This document shows positions 2,592 through 19,896 of a DNA stretch of 33,851 nt, in pieces. The position numbers were made by a program, and so were the translations under genes. The stretch lies in contig JACQVI010000006.1 of NCBI GenBank assembly GCA_016209795.1, positions 1 through 33,851 on the forward strand, read 5' to 3'. Source of the DNA: Ignavibacteriota bacterium (GTDB lineage: Bacteria; Bacteroidota; Ignavibacteria; UBA10030; SZUA-254). How positions within the stretch are numbered: position 1 is the stretch's first letter; each line of letters begins with the position of its first letter. A model generated the notes under the pieces. The model made no database searches. It was not told the DNA's origin and was given only the letters and a program-made list of their open reading frames with translations.

Positions 2592-4242
2592 GATCGAGAC
2601 TGTGTAAAAACTCAATCAATTTAGTTATGTACTGGATTCGTTTGAAATCTTTCAACTATCTATATCAGTGTCAGATTACTCGGGCGACCTTGCGAATCAC
2701 CTTCAACTGCTTTGAAGGTGAGCAATCAAATTCTTCGTCCCTAAAATCGCCAATGCTCGTTTGATATTGTATGCTAAGTTCATCAACGCTGCTTCAGCAG
2801 AAACATTAGGTAATCCTCGAAGAAGGAAAGCACCATAATCCCAGATGCTCTTCAAGGTGCCAAAAACGTGCTCAATGATCTTCTTCCGATCTTTGATGAT
2901 ATCTGAACGTGTTGCCAGACGCTGTTTCAGTCGGTCAAGGACAACTTCGTGTTCCCATCGATACACATATCGCCCGCGTGGTGATGTCGTACAGAAGGCA
3001 CGAACGGAACACTGTCCACAGCAGTTGGTTCGATAGATATAAGTACGTCTGCCGTCTGATTTCGGGTGGGTGCTATAGTGCTGGAGCGATTGACCTGCGG
3101 GACACCGATATGTATCTTTTGCAGAATCATACAAGAACTTGTCGTGGTGATAGTCGGGGGTCGGGATATTGGTTCGTTTTGGGACTTTCTGTGCAGGAAC
3201 AGGAACATAGGTTGTGATATTGTTGTCTTCACAGGTTTTGAGATCAACTGTGTCATAATAACCGGCATCGGCACACACAGTCAGGTGCTCAACATCGAGT
3301 GCAGTTTTCGCCGCCGATGCCATCGTTGAAAGGTGATTGTTATCGGCAGCATCGTTTGTCAGTTCATAGTCAACAATGAGCGAGTATTTATCATCAACAG
3401 CCGTTTGCATTTTATAGGATGGTTCGATGCCATGGCGGTCTTTCATTAAACGACAATCGGGATCAGTAAGTGAAATATACTTCTTCCCGCTCTCAATCAG
3501 TTCAGCTTTTGCCTGTTCCAACTCCTGTTGACGGTGTTCAAGAGAGGCAATCTTTTGTTGAAGGGCGTCCTTTGTTAGTGTGGTGGATGTTGTGTCATCC
3601 TCAGCATCGTTTTCATCAAGTTGTCGAAGGTATTGCGTGATCGATGCAGTGATGCGAGCCATACTGTCGTCAAGCTGCCTGTGGTCTTTGATGCGGTCGC
3701 GAGCATTCTGAGCTTTAAACTTTGTACTATCAACGGCAACAAGTTCATTGCCGAACAATTCGAGTCTTTTACACAGTGAGACAAACTCTTTAAACACCTG
3801 GCGAAGAGCATCGGCGTTATCTTTGCGAAAATCGCTGATCGTCTTATGGTCAGGGGATAAGCGCTTCATGAGCCACAGTATTTCAAGATTGCGCGTAGTC
3901 TCCCGTTCCAACAGTCGACTGGAGCGAACCCGGTTCAGATAGCCGTAGAGATAGAGCTTGAGCAGATCTCTGGGATGATACGGTGGACGTCCAGTATCGC
4001 TGAGGTTCGCATGTACGAAACCAAGTGCCGCAGTGTCGAGTTGATCGACAAAAGCGTCGAGGAATCGAACAGGATTCTCTTGGCTGATGTAATCATCCAC
4101 GGCATCGGGAAATAGGGTAATTTGTTCACGTGGTGTGCCGGAAATATGTTCCATGTTTCGTAATAGGTTGTTGAAGAGAAAAATTTTATCTATTAGACGT
4201 AGTATGAACAAAAAGGGTTGCACTTTTTACACAAACTCGATC
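2592..4242 (-). mobile_element. IS1182-family insertion sequence with terminal inverted repeats and GATC duplication
   Basis: The transposase gene is flanked by imperfect inverted repeats: 2592-2612 and the complement of 4222-4242 agree at 18 of 21 bases, with core TGTGTAAAAA. GATC stands at both outer edges (2592-2595 and 4239-4242) and can be read as a 4-bp target duplication, giving an element of 2596-4238 (1643 bp). Alternatively GATC may be part of the ends. Joining the flanks restores ACAAAGGGATCGCTTTG, a near-perfect palindrome, so the element sits at the centre of a dyad. Both ends and the gene look intact, so the copy may be active or recent. Confidence 0.88.
2703..4154 (-). CDS. IS1182-family DDE transposase
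   Basis: 483 residues from the ATG at 4152-4154; a longer reading that starts at 4223 would run into the inverted repeat and is unlikely. The protein has the IS1182 layout: the N-terminal domain with PVRFLDAFVDQLD (28-40) and Y-H-P-R-D-L-L-K-L-Y-L-Y-G-Y (59-72), the SPDHKTISDFR motif (100-110), and catalytic residues Asp142 (VAVDSTKFKA), Asp296 (VCADAGYYD) and Glu428 (IIEHVFGTLK). An insertion with coiled-coil character (about 165-222) lies between the first and second Asp, and a Cys-rich patch (Cys351, 378, 379, 382, 388) lies before the last motif. No frameshift or internal stop is present. Confidence 0.93.
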   Translation of the reverse strand: MEHISGTPREQITLFPDAVDDYISQENPVRFLDAFVDQLDTAALGFVHANLSDTGRPPYHPRDLLKLYLYGYLNRVRSSRLLERETTRNLEILWLMKRLSPDHKTISDFRKDNADALRQVFKEFVSLCKRLELFGNELVAVDSTKFKAQNARDRIKDHRQLDDSMARITASITQYLRQLDENDAEDDTTSTTLTKDALQQKIASLEHRQQELEQAKAELIESGKKYISLTDPDCRLMKDRHGIEPSYKMQTAVDDKYSLIVDYELTNDAADNNHLSTMASAAKTALDVEHLTVCADAGYYDTVDLKTCEDNNITTYVPVPAQKVPKRTNIPTPDYHHDKFLYDSAKDTYRCPAGQSLQHYSTHPKSDGRRTYIYRTNCCGQCSVRAFCTTSPRGRYVYRWEHEVVLDRLKQRLATRSDIIKDRKKIIEHVFGTLKSIWDYGAFLLRGLPNVSAEAALMNLAYNIKRALAILGTKNLIAHLQSS

Positions 4243-4418: not shown

Positions 4419-4444
4419 CAATTAACTAACTTTTGGAGTATACC

Positions 4445-6535
4445 ATGAAACACTTCGCTCTTTTTCTCACTCTTGCACTTGCCATAAGTGTTACAACTTT
4501 TGGTCAAGTCCCAAAAAAGCTCTCCTACCAGGGACTTCTCACCACATCCGGCGGCACACCTGTCGCCGATGGGAGTTATGATCTTAAGTTCGAGATTTAT
4601 GACGCTTCTGCTGCCGGTATCTTACGCCACAGCGAGACACAGTTTGGCGTGCCGATTACGAAAGGGACTTTTAGTGTTGTTCTTGATTCCCTCGCTGGGA
4701 TTTTTAATGAATCCTTGTACCTAGAAGTCACCGCTGTTACTGGACCTGCAGGTCCCTCCTATCCATTAACATTCTTACCACGTTCTGAACTAACAAGTGC
4801 ACCGTATGCATTTCGAGCAGACACGGCAAATGTTGGTGTGATTGTGGTTACTGATACCCTATGGCGAGCGAGTGGAGATAATGTGTATCGGTTGAGTGGA
4901 AACCTCGGCATCGGCACAGCATCACCTTCTGAAAAACTACATGTTGCCGGTAGCATCAAAGCAAGCGGAACAATATCAAGTGGAAACTCGATCACAATTG
5001 ATGGTGCAAATGATAGAATTACGGCAAGTAGTGGTATCATTAATTTTGATGATGAAGATTTAATCACAACTGGCAAGCTTGGTATTGGCATTACGTCACC
5101 AGTATACAAGTTGGATGTAAGTGAGGATATTAATATCGCCAGTGATAAGCGTTATAGGATCGCGGGTAACCCTATTGTATCGACCAGGGGGATCAACAAT
5201 ATCTTCCTCGGCGCCACTGCTGGTTTCTCGAACACAACTGGCTACAACAACTCATTCGTAGGCTTTCAATCAGGGTTCTTTAATACTACGGGATCTAACA
5301 ATTGTTTCTTTGGATTACATGCTGGTTTAGCCAATACGACTGGATACCAAAATACTTTTCTGGGTTCATCAGCAGGTTTATTTAACACAGACGGAGGAGG
5401 TAATTCATTCGTAGGTCATCAGAGCGGGCATTCGAACACCATGGGAAGTCTTAATACTTTCTTAGGAAATGAAGCAGGTTATTCGAATAGTTCCGCAAGT
5501 GAAAATACTTTTGTTGGTTATAGAGCTGGTCGCTCGACAACAACCTCAGGTGGTAACTCATTCATTGGTTCTCAATCCGGCGTTTCGAATACGACCGGAT
5601 CTGGCAATTCGTTTTTCGGCTTTGCCACTGGTGGCTCGAATGTGTCTGGAGCAAACAATACATTTATAGGTCTAAGGGCCGGTTATTCTAATACCACAGG
5701 TAGTTTCGGGACCATAGTTGGTTACGATGCGGGTTTATGGAAGACCTCAGGTGACTTTAACACATTTTTAGGATACGAAGCGGGTTCTAATAATGTTACT
5801 GGATCAGCCAATTTATTCCTAGGCTACCGAGCTGGGTTCAATGAAACAGGAAGCAACAAACTTTACATTGCAAACTCTTCGATTGACCCACCCCTGATCT
5901 ACGGGGATTTTAGCACTGGCAGAATAGGCATAGGTACGACATTTCTAGCCGGCGAAAAACTAAGAATCAAGGGAAGTGGATTGAGTGAGGTAATGGTCGC
6001 TCTTGAGAACACAGATGCCATTGCTGCTGCAGGGATGAGATTGGAACCGGCCCGATTTACGGTGGGTACATTCGGCGGAGTTCCCACAGATTTTTTGACA
6101 GGTGCAACAACACGGATGCGCATAACCTTTGAGGGGAACGTCGGAATAGGAACAACCAGCCCAGTGGAGAAACTGGATGTGAATGGCAACATCAAAGTGA
6201 GTGGTACAGGTATGTGGCATCACAGCGGTACCCTTGTTTTTGACGGTACATCCCCAACGGCATGGACTGACCTAGACCTTTCCTCGTACGTTGGCGCCAA
6301 CTACGCGCTTGTTTACCTCAAAATCAGCAATGGCGGAGACAATTTTGCGTTTCGATCTGACGGTGAAACAGATGAGTTCTACAACGCAAATGCCTTCGCT
6401 TCATCAAATCGTGGTTGGGCAAATGGAGCAACGTCCGCAACCGTTGTCGTAGAAACTGGATCTAATGGGATCGTCGAATGGAAAACACAAAGCGCCGTCG
6501 CAAGTCAGGTGCGTCTCGTTGGGTTTGTGAAATGA
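4445..6535 (+). CDS. Secreted fibre-like protein with thirteen 17-residue repeats
   Basis: 696 residues from the ATG at 4445; GGAG lies 7 bases upstream, and an upstream in-frame TTG is not needed. A signal peptide ends at TTFGQ, leaving mature N-terminal Gln. Residues ~22-125 form the domain shared with four other proteins here (KLSYQGLL...DGSYDLKFEIYD...LTSAPYAF). Four G-I-G-T-T-S-P-type modules follow at different points (for example NLGIGTASPSEKLHVAGS). Residues ~250-471 are 13 tandem copies of a 17-residue unit, consensus N-x-F-[LVI]-G-x-x-[AS]-G-x-x-N-T-T-G-x-x, ending in SNKLYIANS. This is likely a beta-helical or trimeric fibre shaft, as in tail fibres and YadA-like heads. The C-terminal ~100 residues are a compact domain ending in LVGFVK. 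No T9SS tag and no S74 domain are present. Function is probably adhesion or surface structure; specificity is unknown. Confidence 0.85.
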   Translation: MKHFALFLTLALAISVTTFGQVPKKLSYQGLLTTSGGTPVADGSYDLKFEIYDASAAGILRHSETQFGVPITKGTFSVVLDSLAGIFNESLYLEVTAVTGPAGPSYPLTFLPRSELTSAPYAFRADTANVGVIVVTDTLWRASGDNVYRLSGNLGIGTASPSEKLHVAGSIKASGTISSGNSITIDGANDRITASSGIINFDDEDLITTGKLGIGITSPVYKLDVSEDINIASDKRYRIAGNPIVSTRGINNIFLGATAGFSNTTGYNNSFVGFQSGFFNTTGSNNCFFGLHAGLANTTGYQNTFLGSSAGLFNTDGGGNSFVGHQSGHSNTMGSLNTFLGNEAGYSNSSASENTFVGYRAGRSTTTSGGNSFIGSQSGVSNTTGSGNSFFGFATGGSNVSGANNTFIGLRAGYSNTTGSFGTIVGYDAGLWKTSGDFNTFLGYEAGSNNVTGSANLFLGYRAGFNETGSNKLYIANSSIDPPLIYGDFSTGRIGIGTTFLAGEKLRIKGSGLSEVMVALENTDAIAAAGMRLEPARFTVGTFGGVPTDFLTGATTRMRITFEGNVGIGTTSPVEKLDVNGNIKVSGTGMWHHSGTLVFDGTSPTAWTDLDLSSYVGANYALVYLKISNGGDNFAFRSDGETDEFYNANAFASSNRGWANGATSATVVVETGSNGIVEWKTQSAVASQVRLVGFVK

Positions 6536-8880: not shown

Positions 8881-9080
8881 AGGGTTCCATGGTTCGCCCG
8901 TGCCTGCACGCTGAAGCGTTTCGGCGCGCAAGCGTGTATCCCTGTGATCGGTGGCGAATTCAATCACTGCCACTATTGTTCTTCCACGTCGCCATCCCTC
9001 ACTCTGATGCATCCTTGGCTACCATGCCTCCCGATACAAGCACCCAAATTAAATTATGACACAAATTAACTATTTAACCA
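8881..9080. repeat. Interspersed repeat copy 2 (uninterrupted)
   Basis: It is homologous to 2522-2591 joined to 4243-4398. It holds the GCCTGCACGCTGAA/TTTCGGCGCGCAAGC hairpin and the CCATGCCTCC block and runs into a tandem (tttaacca, attaacca, cttaacca) leader immediately before GGAGG and the ATG at 9113. The rest of the 364-base gap before this gene (8749-8880) holds no gene; a minus-strand open frame over 8700-8963 is only a by-product of the repeat. Confidence 0.75.
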
Positions 9081-9112
9081 ATTAACCACTTAACCATTTC
9101 ATGGAGGATGTT

Positions 9113-9760: not shown

Positions 9761-9778
9761 TGTCCCCAGCCAACCTCG

Positions 9779-9805
9779 TCATTCCGAAAATCTCCCGTTC
9801 GGAAT
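9779..9805. repeat. Palindrome type A (ATTCCGAA...TTCGGAAT), left copy
   Basis: Eight-base arms at 9781-9788 and 9798-9805 with a 9-base loop, preceded by the word GTC. A near-identical copy lies at 10295-10323 on the other side of the GIY-YIG gene. Confidence 0.75.
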
Positions 9806-9820
9806 CTGACGTGTAAGCGT

Positions 9821-9846
9821 CATCCCGACATGCTTTTGGTCGGGAT
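9821..9846. repeat. Palindrome type B (ATCCCGAC...GTCGGGAT)
   Basis: Eight-base arms at 9822-9829 and 9839-9846 around a TG/T-rich loop. The arms match the palindrome in the kelch oxidase tag (8656-8671). Confidence 0.7.
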
Positions 9847-9858
9847 CAGAATAAAGCC

Positions 9859-9903
9859 AGGCTGTGATTAGATGCTGACCAGAAGCGTATCAGCATGACG
9901 GGG
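9859..9903 (+). repeat. 45-bp direct repeat, left copy (palindrome type C)
   Basis: It agrees with 10215-10259 at 44 of 45 bases. It contains the dyad ATGCTGA...TCAGCAT and ends in GACGGGG. It ends 16 bases before the GIY-YIG start codon. Confidence 0.9.
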
Positions 9904-9919
9904 TTTTAGGAAACGAAAT

Positions 9920-10213
9920 ATGAAGAGAGGTTACGTTTACATACTCTCGAACTACACTCGCACAACGTTCTACATAGGGGTGACGAGTAAACTCGGTCCT
10001 CGGTTCGATGAACATCAGGCTGGTGTAGGCTCCAAGTTCGTGAGGAAGTATAATCTCAAGTACCTTGTGTATTATGAGGTGTTTGATCGGATAGAGGATG
10101 CCATACGTCGGGAGAAGCAACTGAAGAAGTGGCATCGTGCCTGGAAGATTAGGCTGATTAAGTCGGTGAATGCAGAAATGCGGGACTTGTCGGAAGAAAT
10201 TCCATGGCAGTAA
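9920..10213 (+). CDS. GIY-YIG single-domain nuclease (UPF0213/YhbQ-like)
   Basis: 97 residues. The GIY-YIG signature is present as Y-V-Y-I-L (5-9) and F-Y-I-G-V-T-S (17-23). Arg28 and Glu65 (REKQLKKW) sit at the conserved catalytic positions. The rest is basic and matches the small stand-alone family of about 80-100 residues, whose members are structure-selective or uncharacterised nucleases. The gene fills the space between two 45-bp direct repeats: the ATG is 16 bases after the left copy, and the stop codon ends one base before the right copy. Palindrome A copies lie further out on both sides. No neighbour is functionally related, so the gene and its repeats look like one mobile unit. Homing or repeat-copying activity is inference. 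Confidence 0.92.
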   Translation: MKRGYVYILSNYTRTTFYIGVTSKLGPRFDEHQAGVGSKFVRKYNLKYLVYYEVFDRIEDAIRREKQLKKWHRAWKIRLIKSVNAEMRDLSEEIPWQ

Positions 10214-10214
10214 T

Positions 10215-10259
10215 AGGCTGTGTTTAGATGCTGACCAGAAGCGTATCAGCATGACGGGG
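10215..10259 (+). repeat. 45-bp direct repeat, right copy (palindrome type C)
   Basis: Differs from 9859-9903 by a single A/T change. It begins right after the GIY-YIG stop codon. Confidence 0.9.
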
Positions 10260-10294
10260 AAGGAATGGGATTTGTAGCCACGCCAGCCCACCCT

Positions 10295-10378
10295 GTCATT
10301 CCGAAAATCTGTCGTTCGGAATCTAAACAGAGCCAAGCTTGGTTCAGATGCTGACCAAGAGAACGTCAGCATGACGGG
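10295..10378. repeat. Second palindrome block: type A plus diverged type C
   Basis: Type A arms ATTCCGAA (10298-10305) and TTCGGAAT (10315-10322) are followed by a diverged type C unit at 10346-10378, with arms ATGCTGAC and GTCAGCAT and the same GACGGG ending. The remaining bases up to 10500 hold no gene; they form an AT-rich leader with short 'ttcac' tandem units before AAGGAG and the next ATG. Confidence 0.75.
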
Positions 10379-10500: not shown

Positions 10501-12009
10501 ATGAAATACTTTGTTCTATTATTCGCATTCTGCATTGTAATCCATCAAGGAGCAATGTACGGTCAGGCAGGAGTACCGAAGAAAATCTCCTACCAGAGCG
10601 CACTCACAGTCGTTGTGAACGCCAAAACGAAGACAGCGAAGAAAGGCACGTACTCGATGCGCTTTGAGCTGTACGATGATCCTGCAGCTGGAACGCTCAT
10701 CCTGACTAATGATCAGACGGTCACAGTCGGTTCTAAGGGCGTGTACACAACCACGATCGGTGAAGACGGATCAAGCCAGGGGAAGTTGGATGGATCAGTC
10801 TTTAATCGATTACTCTGGCTGAAGATTACGCTTCTCTCCGGAGCTGACACGAGGGTCACCTACCCGTATGAGGTTCCCGGTCGTGTCCAACTCACGAGCG
10901 TTCCGTACGCTCTCGGTCCATGGGCATCAAATGAGACTAATGTTTATTACAATGGTGGCAACGTTGGTATCGGGACATCAAGTCCACAACGGCTCCTCCA
11001 CGTAAGTGGAGATCAATCATTTGGAGTGGCACGTTTCGAGCGAGCCTCATCTTCCACCAACCTACTTACACTTTCCCTTCAATTAAAAGGAAAAACTAGT
11101 GGCAATATGATTGACAACTATGGTACGGGCATAAGATTCCTCATTGAAGACGATGCCAGCGTGGAGAATGCGATTGCACTAATTGGTGCTTCAAGGGATG
11201 GAGCTGACAACTCGGGGGCGTTACGCTTCTTTACGACGATAGGTGGAGTAACCGATAATGAAAGAATGAGAATTACGAGTGAGGGCAGAGTGGCCATAGG
11301 CACCACAAGCCCGAACACGGATTCCAGAACGACGATAAGTGCGGCGAGCGAGGATCGCGCCCTCAACCTTGTAGGTAACACGACCGTTGCCGGCGGTAAT
11401 CAAGCTACGCTTCGCGTCGAGAACGCGGGTTCTTCTGAAATAGCAGCATCCTTCAATCCTGATGTGTACGTCTTTGACGATCTTAGTGTCGGTGGAACCC
11501 TGTCCAAAGGCGCTGGTGCTTTCAAGATCGATCACCCGCTTGACCCGGCGAACAAGTTTCTCTACCACTCCTTCGTCGAGTCTCCAGACATGATGAACAT
11601 GTATAATGGAAATGTGCTCCTGGATGGAGGAGGCCAAGCAATCGTGGAATTGCCTGCCTGGTTTGAAGCCCTTAATAAAGACTTCCGCTACCAGCTTACT
11701 GCCATCGGTATGCCCGGACCGAACCTTTATATTTCCCAAAAAATTCAGAACAATCGTTTCAGCATCGCTGGAGGCAGCGCAGGGATGGAAGTCTCCTGGC
11801 AGGTCACCGGAATCCGTCACGATGCCTACGCCAATGCCAATAGGATTCCCGTTGAGGAAGACAAACCAGGGCATGTGCGAGGTCACTATCTTCACCCTGA
11901 GGAGCATGGCCTGCCGAAGGATTTGAAAATTGATCCAGAGCGTACGGGGGAGAGGAAGATCCAAAGAACTCCTTCGGATGCAGATGAAGATCCGACCCAG
12001 TCCGATTGA
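10501..12009 (+). CDS. Secreted fibre-like protein with shared N-terminal domain and DKP/HPxE C-terminal domain
   Basis: 502 residues; AAAGGAG lies just upstream of the ATG. The signal peptide ends at AMYGQ. Residues ~24-140 are the shared N-terminal domain (KKISYQSAL...YSMRFELYD...LTSVPYAL). Two fibre modules follow (NVGIGTSSPQRLLHVSGD and RVAIGTTSP). From about 333 a distinct domain begins with A-F-K-I-D-H-P-L-D-P-A-N-K, continues through YHSFVESPDMMNMYNGNV, and ends in EEDKPGHVRGHYLHPEEHGLP. The C-terminal part of the 12313 gene product has the same plan. The last ~20 residues are charged and low complexity, and their codons run into a hairpin at the stop. There is no T9SS tag. A surface fibre or adhesin role is inferred. 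Confidence 0.82.
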   Translation: MKYFVLLFAFCIVIHQGAMYGQAGVPKKISYQSALTVVVNAKTKTAKKGTYSMRFELYDDPAAGTLILTNDQTVTVGSKGVYTTTIGEDGSSQGKLDGSVFNRLLWLKITLLSGADTRVTYPYEVPGRVQLTSVPYALGPWASNETNVYYNGGNVGIGTSSPQRLLHVSGDQSFGVARFERASSSTNLLTLSLQLKGKTSGNMIDNYGTGIRFLIEDDASVENAIALIGASRDGADNSGALRFFTTIGGVTDNERMRITSEGRVAIGTTSPNTDSRTTISAASEDRALNLVGNTTVAGGNQATLRVENAGSSEIAASFNPDVYVFDDLSVGGTLSKGAGAFKIDHPLDPANKFLYHSFVESPDMMNMYNGNVLLDGGGQAIVELPAWFEALNKDFRYQLTAIGMPGPNLYISQKIQNNRFSIAGGSAGMEVSWQVTGIRHDAYANANRIPVEEDKPGHVRGHYLHPEEHGLPKDLKIDPERTGERKIQRTPSDADEDPTQSD

Positions 12010-12312: not shown

Positions 12313-15072
12313 ATGAGACACTTTTTTATTGTTCTTGCATTGTGTAGTCTGTTCTTAAGCACCCCCGCTTACGCACAGCCGCCACAAACTATCTCGTATC
12401 AAGGGTTCTTGTCTTCCTCTGGTGTTCCACTCAATGGAACGTACGCTCTTACCTTCCGTTTGTATCAAGTTCCAGCTGGTGGAACGGTACTGTGGGAAGA
12501 GACACATGCAGCAGTCCCTGTTCAGAATGGGACATTCAACGTCATCCTCGGTGGGACGACATCACTCAGTGGCATCGACTTTGCCCAGCAGTTGTACCTT
12601 GGCATCACCGAAGGTTCGAATGCTGAGTTTTCACCGCGTGCAGAGTTAACGAGTGCACCGTCAGCATTTGTTTCAAATGCCGTCAAAGGTACAGGAGATG
12701 TCACCACCTCAGGCGTCATCGATGCCACTGGACAGAGCAGTAAGATTCGGTTTTATTACGATTTCTTAGGTGATCTACCAGATGCAAATACATACCACGG
12801 TGCTGTTGCTCACGTTCATGCAACAGGTCTCCTGTATTACGCTCACGATGGTCAGTGGTTTCCACTTTCGGCGGAGGGACATCCACATAGCACGCTTGCA
12901 GCATCTGATGGTACGCCAAGTGATGCGGTAAGTGTTGATGCTGATGGCAATGTCGGCATCGGGACGACAAGTCCAGAGAAGAAATTGGAGGTGACAGGAA
13001 GTGTCAAGGTTTCCGATACTTTGTTTGCCACTAATGTTTCCAGTAATAGTCCTCTCAGGTTGCAGACTGCCGGAACAACACGGATGTACATTGATGATGC
13101 TGCGGGCAAAATCGGCATCGGGACGTCCGCACCGGGGGCGCAGTTGGATGTTTCTGGGTCCAATCCGGAAATTATGGTCAGCAATCCAACCAACAATCAG
13201 TTGAACTCGGGGAAACTCATATTCAGGGAAGGATCGACGGACGCCTTCACGCTTCGCTACGACGCAACGTTGGGGAGCAAAAGGCTTTACCTCGACACGA
13301 AGGATGTGGCGAACGCCTTCGTCGTGGACAGGCTCACCGGCAATGTCGGCATCGGACTCACAAATCCTCGGGCTGCCCTGGAAGTTTCCACGCCCATCGC
13401 GAACGGCAGTTACGGGGGCATCCGGATAACGAACAAATCGATACCGGAAACGACCGGTAAGACGATGGTGGAATTCTTTGATGAAGACGCCCTCGAACCA
13501 TCCGCTCGTATTGCGTCCGACAGATTTCTCAGCGGCACTGTTACGGCGAATCTCATGTTTGATGTCGCCGACTTGGGTGGAACTCTTCAGGAACGAATGC
13601 GCATCAAGGGCAATGGCAACGTCGGCATCGGGACGACGAATCCAGCCTACAAGCTGGATGTGGCGGGTCCGATCCGGACGACGGAAAGCGGCGCCCGCCT
13701 CATCTACTTAGGCGAATCGATCATTGGAGACTATTGGGGAGGACCAGAGAGTGGTGACGATTTTGTCATCCATAATTCAGCTTGGGACGGCGTGTCCAAC
13801 TCCAATTACGGTGAAATTATTGGTGGACACTTTTATTCGTATGGAGGAATAGACATTGGTTCTGGATCCGGCCAAGAGGCCAGTTCAAACGGTCTCTACG
13901 TGGCGGGCCAATCAGAACTGATCGGTAATGTTGGCATCGGGACGACGACACCCAATGCACCTTTGGGATTTCCGCCCGTGCTGGGCAAGAAAATCACCCT
14001 ATATCCGGGTGCAACGGGTGACGTTGGCTTTGGTGTTCAAGGCAACCTGCTTCAGATTTATGCGGACCACCCCAACGCCGACATCGCCTTGGGCTATGAC
14101 CAGGCCGGCGTTTTGACCGAACGGATGCGCATCAAAGGTAGCGGTAACGTCGGCATTGGAACGACGACTCCGTCCTACCCACTTCATGTGACAACCACTG
14201 GGTCCGGTGCCGCATGGTTTGACAATAATTCAACTTCGGGTTCCGCCACTGGTCTTTGGGGTTACGCAGACGGCGCAGGCGGAACCACTCATTACGGCGT
14301 CTACGGGTATGCCACCGGAGCCACGACCAACTATGGGATTTACGGATTCGCTAGCGGGGGGACGACAAACTATGGTATTTATAATGCGGCGGGCACGAAG
14401 AACTGGGCAAACCCCCATCCAAAAGACCCAACCAAATCCATTGTCTATGTGACACTCGAAGGGGGAGAAAACGGCGCCTATTATCGAGGAACGGCAAAAC
14501 TCGTGAATGGGAAAGCCACCGTAGTCCTGCCAGAACATTTCCAGTTGGCAACATCGTCGGACAGCTACGTCAACGTGACCGTCACCCCAAATTCCAGAAA
14601 ATCAAAAGGGCTTGCGGTCGTCGAAAGGAGCAACTCTCGGTTCACCGTTGAAGAACTGTTCGACGGTGAGGGCAACTACGAGTTCGACTATATGGTCGTC
14701 GGTATACGAAGAGGATATGAGACATGGGAACCCATCACCGATGTTCTTGATTACGTGCCTTTCTACGGTAACCATGCGAATATGGACGAAGGCAAGACAA
14801 GCACTCAGGATTTTTACGATGGACAATCCGAGGGCTTGAAGAAGTTGTTCATATCCAACGGGCTCTTGAACCCAGATGGAACGGTGAACCGTGAGACATT
14901 CCGGGAGTATGGCTGGAGGATCGTGGAAAAGAATCACCTCCAAGTCGAAGTCGATAAACCGAACGATGAGCGCAGCAAGTATTTTCATCCGAAAGAATTT
15001 GGTCAACCAGCATTGACGGGCATTGACTATGAAATGAGACCAGACATTATAAAGAAACATGAAAACAAATAG
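12313..15072 (+). CDS. Large secreted fibre-like protein with six G-I-G-T modules and DKP/HPxE C-terminal domain
   Basis: 919 residues; AGGAGAG precedes the ATG. The signal peptide ends at AYAQ. The shared N-terminal domain spans ~24-120 (QTISYQGFL...LTSAPSAF). Six modules of the N-V-G-I-G-T-T-x-P type are spread between ~215 and ~625; several are preceded by ERMRIKGNG or similar. Residues ~655-697 contain a short repeat (THYGVYGYATGATTNYGIYG). From ~697 a second domain runs to the end: NPHPKDPTKSIVYVTLEGGE, then LPEHFQ, then a YMVVGIRRGYETWEP segment, and V-E-V-D-K-P-N-D-E-R-S-K-Y-F-H-P-K-E-F-G-Q-P near 880-902, matching the C-terminal motif of the 10501 product. No T9SS tag and no S74 domain are present. 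Probable trimeric surface fibre; ligand unknown. Confidence 0.83.
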   Translation: MRHFFIVLALCSLFLSTPAYAQPPQTISYQGFLSSSGVPLNGTYALTFRLYQVPAGGTVLWEETHAAVPVQNGTFNVILGGTTSLSGIDFAQQLYLGITEGSNAEFSPRAELTSAPSAFVSNAVKGTGDVTTSGVIDATGQSSKIRFYYDFLGDLPDANTYHGAVAHVHATGLLYYAHDGQWFPLSAEGHPHSTLAASDGTPSDAVSVDADGNVGIGTTSPEKKLEVTGSVKVSDTLFATNVSSNSPLRLQTAGTTRMYIDDAAGKIGIGTSAPGAQLDVSGSNPEIMVSNPTNNQLNSGKLIFREGSTDAFTLRYDATLGSKRLYLDTKDVANAFVVDRLTGNVGIGLTNPRAALEVSTPIANGSYGGIRITNKSIPETTGKTMVEFFDEDALEPSARIASDRFLSGTVTANLMFDVADLGGTLQERMRIKGNGNVGIGTTNPAYKLDVAGPIRTTESGARLIYLGESIIGDYWGGPESGDDFVIHNSAWDGVSNSNYGEIIGGHFYSYGGIDIGSGSGQEASSNGLYVAGQSELIGNVGIGTTTPNAPLGFPPVLGKKITLYPGATGDVGFGVQGNLLQIYADHPNADIALGYDQAGVLTERMRIKGSGNVGIGTTTPSYPLHVTTTGSGAAWFDNNSTSGSATGLWGYADGAGGTTHYGVYGYATGATTNYGIYGFASGGTTNYGIYNAAGTKNWANPHPKDPTKSIVYVTLEGGENGAYYRGTAKLVNGKATVVLPEHFQLATSSDSYVNVTVTPNSRKSKGLAVVERSNSRFTVEELFDGEGNYEFDYMVVGIRRGYETWEPITDVLDYVPFYGNHANMDEGKTSTQDFYDGQSEGLKKLFISNGLLNPDGTVNRETFREYGWRIVEKNHLQVEVDKPNDERSKYFHPKEFGQPALTGIDYEMRPDIIKKHENK

Positions 15073-15163: not shown

Positions 15164-16954
15164 ATGAGAACTGTTCTTAAAGTTGTTGTCGTACTATTAT
15201 TGGTGTTCTGTGTACGTGCATCCGGTCAGGCACCAAGTACGAGTACATCTCCATCACCAGTTGCTTTAGAGCAAGGAAGTCAGAAAACGAGTGCCGGCTT
15301 CTCGAGCGTGCCGCTCACCATCTCCTACCAAGGCTTGATGACCACATCGTCAGGTACACCTGTGCAGGACGGCAATTACGACATCCAGTTCGATCTTTAT
15401 GAAGCAAGTGTGGGCGGCACAAGCGAGTGGACTGAGGCGCACTCAGGCGTTGCTGTTTCCAAAGGGACATTTAACGTCATCCTCGGCTCCACGACATCAT
15501 TGAATAATTTTAACTTCAACCGCCAAATGTACTTAGAGGTTACAGCAACTGCTGGACCCGCAGGTCCGTCGTATCCAATCACGTTTCCACGTTCGGCGCT
15601 CACAAGCGCGCCCTCTGCGCTTGCACCGTGGACTGCCAATGGGAGTAACATTAGTTATGTGAATGGCAACGTCGGACTCGGCACGGCGAATCCTTTAACA
15701 CGGCTGCACATAGCTAATGCAAGTGATCCCTACTCAGGGCTATTCCTAGAAGCTACGGAGGGGGATCGGGCTGCTATGTACTACTGGCCGCCTTGGGGGG
15801 GGCTGATTTTTGACAGCTACAGACCGAGTGATGGTCGCCGCTTGCCGTTTCTCTTGCAACCGATTGGTGGTAACGTCGGCATCGGGACGACGAGTCCAAC
15901 TGAACTTTTGACACTAAATGGCAACAATAAAAAGATACTTATGAATTCATCAACCTTGAATCCAGCTACTCGTCTTAGTATTGTATTCTCTGAGGCAGGT
16001 ACCACCCCATATGTTATGTCTCTTTCTTACGATGGTTCGTTAAGCGGTGATGATAATAAATTGAATATTCGTGATGAGACTAACTCAGTAGATAGAGTTA
16101 CATTTACCAGAGGCGGCAATGTCGGCATCGGGACGACGAGTCCGGTGTACAGACTCACGGTGAATCAAACCACCGCGTCTACCTATGCAGCTCACATTTA
16201 CACTTCGGGGCTTGCGGCGGGCACATCCTATGGACTGACAGTCTCTGGGGGAACCAATGCGAGTGACGTTTCATTCACTGCAAGAAATCAAGCAGGGACA
16301 GACTTGCTCTTCGTAAGGGGCGACGGCAATGTCGGCATCGGGACGACGAGTCCGGCGACACTATTGAATCTCCAACAGCCTAGTTCCATTGGAGCGTTGC
16401 AAATCAGCAGAACTGGTTTCACCGATGCAAGGTTTACACTTTCGAGTAATGCGGCAGGTAACTCTGTTTTAGGTGTAGGAATCCCTGGCACTGCATTTCA
16501 AACTACATTTGAATTAAGTTCCGGCAATGTCGGCATCGGGACAACAAGTCCAAGTGCCAAATTGCACGTCAACGGGACTGCAGGAAATAACACAGGTGTA
16601 TGGTCGAATCTATCTGACAGGAGATTGAAAAAAGACATCGAGCCGATTCACAACGCACTTGAAATAGTAACACAGCTTCAAGGTGTTACCTTTCGATGGA
16701 AGGATCCCAAAAAAGATGCAGAATTTGGTCGTGTCCGCGGCCTTATTGCTCAGGAGGTGGAGAAAGTTATTCCTGAGTGGGTGAAAACTGATCCTGATGG
16801 TTATAAGCGTATCGAACCCATTGGCGTGGATGCGCTCCTCATTGAAGCAATCAAAGATCAGCAGAAGGAAATCGAAGAGCTGAGAGCCATGGTGAAGTCG
16901 CTGGTCGAGCAAGGACACGAGACTGTGAACAAGTCTCTTGGCAAGCTGAAGTAG
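15164..16954 (+). CDS. Secreted tail-fibre-like protein with C-terminal S74 (endosialidase-type) chaperone
   Basis: 596 residues; AAGAGG lies upstream of the ATG. The signal peptide ends at ASGQ. The shared N-terminal domain (~52-160) is nearly the same as in the 17980 product, also at DNA level. Five G-I-G-T-T-S-P modules follow between ~168 and ~475. Residues 484-596 form a peptidase S74 domain: Ser484-Asp-Arg-Arg-Leu-Lys489 has the Ser/Lys dyad spacing of the self-cleaving intramolecular chaperones of phage fibres, followed by RGLIAQEVEKVIPEWV and a C-terminal coiled coil (QQKEIEELRAMVKSLVEQ). In known members the domain trimerises the fibre and cuts itself off before Ser. Mature product is thus probably a trimeric surface fibre. 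No T9SS tag is present, so the export route is open. Confidence 0.87.
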   Translation: MRTVLKVVVVLLLVFCVRASGQAPSTSTSPSPVALEQGSQKTSAGFSSVPLTISYQGLMTTSSGTPVQDGNYDIQFDLYEASVGGTSEWTEAHSGVAVSKGTFNVILGSTTSLNNFNFNRQMYLEVTATAGPAGPSYPITFPRSALTSAPSALAPWTANGSNISYVNGNVGLGTANPLTRLHIANASDPYSGLFLEATEGDRAAMYYWPPWGGLIFDSYRPSDGRRLPFLLQPIGGNVGIGTTSPTELLTLNGNNKKILMNSSTLNPATRLSIVFSEAGTTPYVMSLSYDGSLSGDDNKLNIRDETNSVDRVTFTRGGNVGIGTTSPVYRLTVNQTTASTYAAHIYTSGLAAGTSYGLTVSGGTNASDVSFTARNQAGTDLLFVRGDGNVGIGTTSPATLLNLQQPSSIGALQISRTGFTDARFTLSSNAAGNSVLGVGIPGTAFQTTFELSSGNVGIGTTSPSAKLHVNGTAGNNTGVWSNLSDRRLKKDIEPIHNALEIVTQLQGVTFRWKDPKKDAEFGRVRGLIAQEVEKVIPEWVKTDPDGYKRIEPIGVDALLIEAIKDQQKEIEELRAMVKSLVEQGHETVNKSLGKLK

Positions 16955-17979: not shown

Positions 17980-19896
17980 ATGAAAGCCGTTCTTATACTT
18001 GTTATACTGCTTCTGTTGGCGTTCTGTCTGACCGCATTCGGTCAGGTGCCAGCTCCGAGCAAAACTCTCCCATTAACTACCTCCGGACAAGGGGAGCCCA
18101 AAAACACCGCGGGCTTTACAAGTGTGCCGCTCGCTATCTCCTATCAAGGCTTGATGACGACATCGTCAGGCACACCTGTGCAGGACGGAAATTACGACAT
18201 ACAGTTCGATCTTTATGAAGCAAGTGTCGGCGGCACAAGCGAGTGGACTGAGACACATAATGGCGTTGCGGTCTCACGAGGGACTTTCAATATCATCCTT
18301 GGAGCCACGACATCTTTGAATAATTTTAATTTCAACCGTCAAATGTACTTAGAGGTCACAGCAACGGCTGGGCCCGCAGGTCCGTCGTATCCAATCACGT
18401 TTTCTCCCCGTGCGCAACTCACAAGCGCACCAACAGCTCTCGCGCCATGGACAGTGAATTCAGGAAATATTTATTATAACAACGGCAATGTTGGCATCGG
18501 GACGAACAGCCCGAGTACTATTCTTGATGTCCGCAAAGACGTCCCTAATGATTTGGGGCCAATAATTAGTCTATCTAATGGTGGCGGAGGAGCTACGTCT
18601 GGAGGAGCGATTGACTTTAAGAATCTCAATGTTACTTCTCCTACTCAATTCAGGATTAGAACCGACGATGACGGTAACTCATCAGCTCATTTGGCATTTT
18701 TGGCCAGACCGCAGGGCCCAGGTGGTAGTAGCGTTATAGAGCATATGAGAATTACAAGCAGGGGCAACATCGGCATCGGGACCACGACCCCTAGTCAGAA
18801 ATTGCATGTTGCCTCAACCGGATCAAACACCTCAAGGCTTCTTATGGAATCACAAGGTTCAGTAGCTATTAGACAAGCTCTTACACTCACTGCTGGTCAA
18901 GGAAGATGGTCAACTTTTGTTGGTGTTGACGGTAGTTATGGTATAGCAAGTGCTAACGACTTATTCGACGATTTCACCAATAGATTTGTAATAAATCACT
19001 CCTCTGGCAACGTCGGCATCGGGACAATAACGCCAACCGCAAAGCTCCACATCGGGGGTACTCCCGGCATAGACGGTATCCGTTTCCCTGATGGTTCGCT
19101 GCAAACTTCTGGAGGCGTTGGCTCTGCATCTTCGGTCAGTAGTGCAACTGATGCCCTCGTAACTGGTGACAATGACAACAATGGCTCCGGCGATGTTCGC
19201 TTTGTCACTGGACTTTCTGATAAGATGCGGATTACAAACGGAGGCAACGTCGGCATCGGGACGGCGAGCCCGTCTGCAAAACTACAAGTGACCGGTTCCG
19301 AGACCACAACAGATGGAAAAAATGCCGCTATCACTATTTCCAATACAGCTTCTGGTGGAGCCAACTGGTATTTGCGAGCTGGTGCTACCGGCACAGTTAC
19401 TCCGGCCGCTGGATTTTCTATTGCTGATGATATAACCTATAGATTCGTTATATCTGGCATAGGAAACGTGGGGATTGGAAATTATATTGTTACCCCTAGT
19501 AACATTATAACTGTCGAACAAAATTCTTCTACCGACCCCATTGCCGACGCCTGGACTACTTACAGCTCACGTCGTTGGAAAACGAACATCAAGACAATCG
19601 AAAGAGCTTTAGATAAAATTCAACTTCTTCGGGGTGTTCGGTTTGACTGGAAAGCAGATGGCAAGCATGATATCGGTCTCATCGCTGAAGAAGTCGGCGA
19701 GGTCATCCCAGAAGTCGTCGCTTATGAAGAGAACAGCAAGGATGCCAGGTCGGTAGATTATGCGAGACTGGTCGCAGTGTTGATTGAAGGGATGAAGGAG
19801 CAGCAAAAGGAACTCGAAGAGCTGAGAGCGATGGTGAAGTCGCTTGTGGAGCAACAGGCGGACAACGAGAAGAAATCGCTTGGGGAGTTGAAGTGA
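17980..19896 (+). CDS. Secreted tail-fibre-like protein with C-terminal S74 chaperone (paralog of 15164)
   Basis: 638 residues. The signal peptide ends at AFGQ. The shared N-terminal domain (~52-160) aligns without gaps to the 15164 product over 15331-15590 versus 18147-18406 (constant offset 2816) and is very similar at DNA level. Five modules of the G-I-G-T type lie between ~170 and ~510; one is altered to NVGIGNYIVTPSN. Residues 529-638 form an S74 domain with Ser529 and Lys534 at the dyad spacing (S-S-R-R-W-K), DIGLIAEEVGEVIPEVV, and the coiled coil QQKELEELRAMVKSLVEQ. The middle, between the modules, is unlike its paralog, so the variable part is the fibre shaft. Expected product: self-cleaved trimeric fibre. 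No T9SS tag. Confidence 0.87.
   Translation: MKAVLILVILLLLAFCLTAFGQVPAPSKTLPLTTSGQGEPKNTAGFTSVPLAISYQGLMTTSSGTPVQDGNYDIQFDLYEASVGGTSEWTETHNGVAVSRGTFNIILGATTSLNNFNFNRQMYLEVTATAGPAGPSYPITFSPRAQLTSAPTALAPWTVNSGNIYYNNGNVGIGTNSPSTILDVRKDVPNDLGPIISLSNGGGGATSGGAIDFKNLNVTSPTQFRIRTDDDGNSSAHLAFLARPQGPGGSSVIEHMRITSRGNIGIGTTTPSQKLHVASTGSNTSRLLMESQGSVAIRQALTLTAGQGRWSTFVGVDGSYGIASANDLFDDFTNRFVINHSSGNVGIGTITPTAKLHIGGTPGIDGIRFPDGSLQTSGGVGSASSVSSATDALVTGDNDNNGSGDVRFVTGLSDKMRITNGGNVGIGTASPSAKLQVTGSETTTDGKNAAITISNTASGGANWYLRAGATGTVTPAAGFSIADDITYRFVISGIGNVGIGNYIVTPSNIITVEQNSSTDPIADAWTTYSSRRWKTNIKTIERALDKIQLLRGVRFDWKADGKHDIGLIAEEVGEVIPEVVAYEENSKDARSVDYARLVAVLIEGMKEQQKELEELRAMVKSLVEQQADNEKKSLGELK

Follow-up and report, generated by a model that had tools for sequence, protein, structure and literature searches.

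A GIY-YIG nuclease gene bracketed by outward-facing CGTC-type REP hairpins: a probable REP–nuclease–REP unit found in several phyla

The GIY-YIG nuclease gene of the window (the whole 33.9-kb stretch of DNA that was analysed) is flanked by short inverted hairpins of the CGTC-REP kind. Bracketing by hairpins with outward-facing YGTC tags is a systematic feature of this nuclease subfamily and specific to it. Genomes have or lack the gene and its hairpins as one block, which also occurs in duplicate and with internal deletions and whose homology extends to the tags. The locus is probably one copy of a widespread REP–GIY-YIG–REP unit with a nuclease that processes cognate hairpins, making it an analogue of REP/RAYT systems with an unrelated enzyme.

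Organisation of the locus

The six hairpins at the locus (Table 1) have one build, comprising an unpaired GTC tag after C or T, an 8-bp stem starting with AT and a 9-nt loop; they end with CTGA, CTAA or CAGA, not CCA. No other hairpins of this regular form were found in the window. Two inverted, REPIN-like pairs of 81 bp flank the gene. The initial annotation described palindromes of types A, B and C around the gene; all six lie where it placed them, but they form one hairpin class with exchangeable stems, not three unrelated types. It also placed a 97-residue GIY-YIG gene between 45-bp repeats identical at 44 of 45 positions, with 16 bases from the left repeat to the ATG and one base from the stop codon to the right repeat, and the coordinates confirm this. 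The idea that these direct repeats package the gene, however, has been dropped as the key feature. Each repeat is the minus-strand C hairpin with the 10 bp preceding it, that is, the 3′-side hairpin and its flank, occurring twice. The key symmetry is therefore that of inverted hairpins with outward tags, and it is these outward-facing YGTC hairpins that constitute the conserved ends.

Table 1. Hairpins, repeats and nuclease gene at the locus (positions in the window)
Feature	Position	Strand	Remarks
CGTC-REP hairpin, stem type A (GTCATTCCGAA..TTCGGAATCTGA)	9778..9809	+	
CGTC-REP hairpin, stem type B (GTCATCCCGAC..GTCGGGATCAGA)	9819..9850	+	left half of upstream 81-bp pair
CGTC-REP hairpin, stem type C (GTCATGCTGA..TCAGCATCTAA)	9868..9899	-	right half of upstream pair; within left 45-bp repeat
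GIY-YIG nuclease gene	9920..10213	+	97 aa, PF01541, active-site-type residues intact
CGTC-REP hairpin, type C	10224..10255	-	outward tag, just past stop codon; within right 45-bp repeat
CGTC-REP hairpin, type A	10295..10326	+	left half of downstream 81-bp pair
CGTC-REP hairpin, type C	10344..10375	-	right half of downstream pair, outward tag
81-bp inverted pair, upstream	9819..9899		
81-bp inverted pair, downstream	10295..10375		
Left 45-bp repeat	9859..9903		
Right 45-bp repeat	10215..10259		

The genome to which the window belongs, as contig C45, is 3.39 Mb long and 96% complete. Across this genome, the pattern GTCATN{16,36}ATCTRA has 102 matches, compared with 32 for the reversed control. 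Gene-free A/C hairpin pairs of about 90 bp (TTCCGA-type plus GCTGA-type) are located on contigs C222, C29 and C170, and less perfect gene-free pairs on C108 and C93. Three further relatives of the nuclease are encoded: one is intact (C210), one has an in-frame TGA (C122) and one is cut by the contig end (C260). The C210 gene is bracketed as well, by hairpins of a different family, GTCATTGCGA.

Elsewhere in the window, a 506-aa DDE transposase ORF (DUF772 and DDE_Tnp_1; 2703–4223, minus strand) is unrelated to the GIY-YIG unit. The region 8900–9099 contains a different dispersed repeat; positions 8900–8940 are 93–95% identical to C45:2542–2582 and C257:6825–6861, and positions 8976–9080 resemble C45:4291–4393. 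Long, repetitive, secreted-looking proteins are encoded in a row (4433–6535, 10501–12009, 12313–15072, 15164–16954 and 17980–19896) and share repeated GIGT motifs and an SYQG-type region at the N-terminus; they look like a family expansion.

The nuclease

The 97-aa ORF matches PF01541 with an E-value of 3.6e-15 and a score of 56.4 bits, against a gathering cut-off of 22.6. GIY-YIG is the sole domain detected in the protein, and the enzyme found between the REPs is not a Y1/HUH transposase. Residues Y7, Y18, G20, R28, H32, E65 and N84 are invariant in an alignment of 22 sequences. The AlphaFold2 model is confident (pLDDT 94), and its only strong neighbour among solved structures is the UPF0213 protein BH0048, with Slx1 and the GIY-YIG domain of UvrC as weaker matches. 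Slx1 is described as cleaving branched DNA close to the branch point (PMC6902002), which would fit a hairpin or cruciform substrate for the nuclease. No NCBIfam family scored above its cut-off for the protein. INPHARED gave no match, i.e. no named phage was found to carry the gene. A reading of the locus as a defence system was dropped because PADLOC gave no match for it.

Association of the gene with hairpins across genomes

Homologues were gathered by protein similarity alone and comprised 33 GTDB-species loci, 14 loci from a plasmid collection and 70 same-phylum loci; the non-redundant set (n = 112) is weighted toward Bacteroidota-like genomes. An outward-facing GTCA hairpin is located within 200 bp upstream of 69/112 genes, downstream of 66/112 and on both sides of 51/112. 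At distances beyond 500 bp, 43/1604 sequence windows (2.7%) hold such a hairpin; the upstream and downstream enrichments have binomial p-values of about 2e-78 and 4e-73, respectively. Ten other four-base anchors were found upstream of only 1–14 of the 112 genes. A tag-blind count of the base triplets immediately outside all perfect stems of at least 7 bp gave GTC as the top trinucleotide, with 100/363 near the genes versus 43/1838 far from them. With the comparison limited to intergenic stretches, lacking long ORFs, a hairpin was present in 101/136 near and 20/120 far. Sibling UPF0213-type GIY-YIG genes, nearly all from the same phylum, had hairpins on neither side (0/25). An independent set of IMG/VR contigs, used as a replicate only and not taken as true phage genes, had hairpins upstream in 22/38, downstream in 19/38 and on both sides in 15/38 cases; the corresponding values for distant GIY-YIG proteins were 1/22, 2/22 and 1/22. 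These tests exclude chance as the source of the arrangement. The proposal of a REP-like system in which a GIY-YIG enzyme replaces the Y1 transposase is thus strongly supported as a cross-phylum association.

Bracketed genes were found in Bacteroidota, Pseudomonadota, Myxococcota, Cyanobacteriota, Zixibacteria, Saccharibacteria and Doudnabacteria. The pseudomonadotal hosts include Rhizobiaceae, Microvirga, Azospirillum, Sphingobium and Neisseria, and the Neisseria copy is located among dRS3-kind repeats. On a Planktothrix plasmid (L073, 3001–3285), a GIY-YIG gene lies between the gene of an MmeI-type restriction enzyme and DISARM drmA.

Left and right stems of the same gene match at 5.06 of 6 positions, whereas shuffled stems match at 3.45 (sd 0.15), with a maximum of 3.94 in 5000 shuffles; they are identical in 23/51 loci, compared with 2.5 expected. 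Stem similarity also rises with protein similarity (Mantel r = 0.28, with 0/2000 permutations as high; r = 0.20 for locus pairs below 60% identity). Genome ancestry feeds both stem and protein likeness, so this correlation is consistent with recognition of the stems by the nuclease rather than proof of it. The protein tree largely follows phylum; transfer between phyla is therefore not shown, which counts against the preferred reading.

A very improbable explanation of the arrangement is passive co-residence in permissive intergenic spots, or hairpins that serve only as terminators or mRNA stabilisers. REPs do generally favour the 3′ ends of genes (PMC3733652), and some units lie inside hairpin clusters. 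Passive co-residence is, however, already disfavoured by the sibling-gene and intergenic controls; in addition, upstream hairpins are as frequent as downstream ones and face outward, left and right stems match, and homology between copies stops at the tags.

For about a fifth of the homologues (21/112), no hairpin was detected in the 200 bp on either side, and this counts against a hairpin-processing unit. Flanking hairpins were not detected in a rumen Bacteroidales clade (L017, L019, L021, L023, L024, L025 and L029), the nucleases of which have a longer C-terminus (..VDEEYIQAVKEAYE..); this clade may be a domesticated lineage. Genome-scale counts cover genomes of the window's own phylum. In these, the hairpin pattern is modestly commoner in gene-bearing genomes (n = 296; Mann–Whitney p = 0.005), and 13 of the 15 hairpin-rich genomes carry the nuclease gene. 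The genome-wide correlation of gene and hairpin counts (Spearman 0.21) is noisy, uncorrected for relatedness and weak as evidence. One genome (G121) contains 25 CGTC-type pattern matches (e.g. GTCATTCTGAGTCCGACACAGTCGGGCGAAGAATC) but, at E ≤ 1e-12, lacks any nuclease relative, which also counts against the preferred reading.

Unit boundaries, copies and deletion derivatives

Measured from tag to tag, the units are 345–678 bp long (median 435), and a genome can contain up to 11 relatives of the nuclease. Two copies in G088 are 91% identical exactly from the outer left tag to the outer right tag, with unrelated sequence beyond; homology between two distant copies in G077 begins at the tag, and a 99% duplicate in G074 stops 3 bp past the right tag. 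Remnants found at other places in the genus of G065 start at the left hairpin's GTC tag, and two loci (L256 and L258) retain both hairpins around an internal deletion. A deletion derivative is also present in G054. In S. meliloti Ak57, a 159-bp derivative (L066, 2663–2821) adjoins a complete unit; it has both hairpins and the 5′ leader, with the gene reduced to its last codons. Three units are arranged in tandem in G066. At L189 (G198:C1:1480000-1486000), two GIY-YIG genes are located within a dense array of related repeats. Some of the duplicated units stand in tandem or within hairpin clusters; ordinary recombination could suffice to explain them, and this counts against the preferred reading.

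Gene-free alleles

At four orthologous sites, each with conserved neighbouring genes to the left and right, relatives lack the gene. In Azospirillum lipoferum 4B, the sufB–sufC interval comprises a hairpin pair, the gene and a second hairpin pair; in five other Azospirillum genomes it is a short spacer with no hairpins. Shinella HZN7 and WSC3-e carry the unit, and H4-D48, S. sumterensis and S. zoogloeoides have neither gene nor hairpin there. Sphingobium TomMM7A, TYG46 and MM15 carry the unit, TYG72 and TYG65 have neither unit nor palindrome, and TYG64 and TYG74 possess one symmetric palindrome that resembles the outer arms of both hairpins joined. A single fused palindrome is also present in Sinorhizobium C101 at the site of the Ak57 unit. 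Deletion from the left arm of one hairpin to the identical left arm of the other would yield such a fused palindrome, which could also be a target. Loss by stem-arm slippage fits the Sphingobium and Sinorhizobium alleles as well as gain does, which counts against the preferred reading. Congeners of G077 and G065 have one-sided gene-free sites without any REP, which are suggestive only, since synteny breaks off on the other side. No target-site duplication was seen at the few sites read, where the gene-free alleles have diverged.

Fixed ends, multiple copies and empty sites, as in a transposable element, are thus found in relatives rather than at the window's own locus; unit behaviour and gene-free alleles were read mostly in relatives, as the genus of the window is represented by one genome. 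The initial annotation had counted stable presence of the gene in all relatives, without the repeats, as evidence against a mobile cassette, and the gene is not fixed at the loci compared. It had likewise weighed repeats scattered without the gene together with a lack of empty sites: gene-free hairpin pairs do occur in the host genome, but alleles lacking the gene were found among relatives of other carriers. As regards the suggested minimal mobile unit, the unit-like behaviour is upheld (tag-to-tag homology, gene-free alleles and deletion derivatives), whereas cleavage of the hairpins by the nuclease and movement powered by it are what we infer.

The main rival reading, which we regard as unlikely, is REP-targeted homing. 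The nuclease would cut solo hairpins or hairpin pairs elsewhere, and repair from a gene-bearing unit, with the hairpins as short homology arms, would convert gene-free REP sites to gene-bearing ones. The single symmetric outer-arm palindromes of Sphingobium TYG64 and TYG74 and of Sinorhizobium C101 agree with homing, as do the tandem arrays of units; moreover, GIY-YIG is a classic homing nuclease fold, and its chemistry is hydrolytic only. However, the gene-free sites of Azospirillum and Shinella and the one-sided sites of the G077 and G065 congeners lack any REP, and a homing nuclease would have to spare or tolerate its own flanking hairpins.

A host-serving, structure-specific nuclease that trims cruciforms or hairpins, with its gene embedded among its substrates and the hairpins spread by other means, appears quite improbable. 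The nearest solved folds (UPF0213 and Slx1), the tree that follows phylum and the existence of clades without hairpins are in keeping with such a role, but the multi-copy genomes, gene-free alleles and deletion derivatives, as well as the C122 copy with its internal stop in the window's genome, look selfish rather than housekeeping.

Relation to known systems

CGTC REPs, as defined by Di Nocera, De Gregorio and Rocco in 2013 (PMC3733652), have a CGTC or TGTC tag and an 8–9-bp stem beginning with AT, and form predominantly head-to-head pairs. They are intergenic, occur in several phyla, including Bacteroidetes, Chlorobi and Alphaproteobacteria, and include Neisseria dRS3 and Rickettsia RPE-4 and RPE-6. 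Their loop is normally 4–5 nt long, although some families differ, and most, but not all, of their tails fit CCA; a dedicated transposase was not found for them. The hairpins of the window are similar in their YGTC tag, 8-bp AT-starting stem, 3-nt tail and inverted head-to-head pairing, and differ in having 9-nt rather than 4–5-nt loops and a CTGA/CTAA-like tail instead of CCA. At other loci, short loops are present, such as GTCATTCCCGCGAAGGCGGGAATCCA, and TCCA is the commonest hairpin end (89/266); T or C precedes GTCA in 243/266 hairpins of the whole set. A further difference is the GIY-YIG gene between the hairpins, where the defining paper reports no dedicated enzyme.

REP/RAYT systems and REPINs (Nunvar 2010, PMC2817692; Bertels and Rainey 2011, PMC3116915) also have an enzyme gene between inverted, short-tagged palindromes, dispersed gene-free hairpin pairs and stems cognate to the enzyme. 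In the present units, the tag is YGTC instead of GTAG, and the enzyme is a GIY-YIG nuclease instead of a Y1/HUH transposase. RAYTs are described as single-copy (PMC3116915), unlike the GIY-YIG units, which are multi-copy and have deletion derivatives. The UPF0213 or prokaryotic Slx1-like proteins (YhbQ, YazA, BH0048 and EF2693) are similar to the nuclease in fold and size, but sibling genes of this type in the same phylum are unbracketed (0/25). IS200/IS605 elements are likewise small, with hairpins near both ends, but the GIY-YIG unit has no Y1 transposase and measures 345–678 bp from tag to tag. The homing endonucleases I-TevI and I-BmoI belong to the same GIY-YIG superfamily and have a similarly selfish-looking distribution. 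Unlike them, the nuclease has no intron, intein or NUMOD domain around it, and the units, in the annotated loci examined, are intergenic, with hairpins of their own, and interrupt no conserved target gene.

In the open-access literature searched, no link was found between GIY-YIG proteins and REP, CGTC, RAYT, dRS3 or Rickettsia palindromic elements. Term searches in a 2025 REP survey, a 2018 survey of HUH endonucleases and a 2006 GIY-YIG phylogenomics paper gave no GIY-YIG–REP link either.

Possible mechanism and significance

In the preferred reading of a hairpin-processing REP–GIY-YIG–REP unit, the nuclease would recognise its own hairpins, either in single-stranded DNA or in cruciforms, the unpaired YGTC tag being the constant element, and would cut close to the stem base of the cognate hairpin. 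Host replication or repair across the cut might then copy or excise not only the unit but also, in trans, hairpin pairs that have no gene. GIY-YIG enzymes cleave DNA by hydrolysis, and rejoining of strands by them is not known. Movement would therefore need replication or repair by the host, and copying through host repair is more likely than transposition of the classical kind. The scattered gene-free hairpin pairs would be non-autonomous derivatives, related to the unit as REPINs are to RAYTs.

The paper defining CGTC REPs left open which enzyme, if any, disseminates them (PMC3733652), and the bracketed GIY-YIG gene supplies a testable candidate; the GIY-YIG enzyme may be the missing partner of CGTC-type REPs. 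A bolder version, to which we give somewhat less than even weight, is that of a self-spreading element of about 350 bp, in which a single-domain GIY-YIG enzyme acts on CGTC end hairpins and which is the source of CGTC REPs, including dRS3 and RPE-4/RPE-6, across phyla. If this is true, the unit would rank with the smallest candidate autonomous mobile elements of bacteria. Confirmation would also mean that REP-type repeat systems had two origins, each with an enzyme unrelated to the other; it would assign a function to many genes annotated just as 'GIY-YIG nuclease family protein' and make a very small hairpin-directed nuclease available for study.
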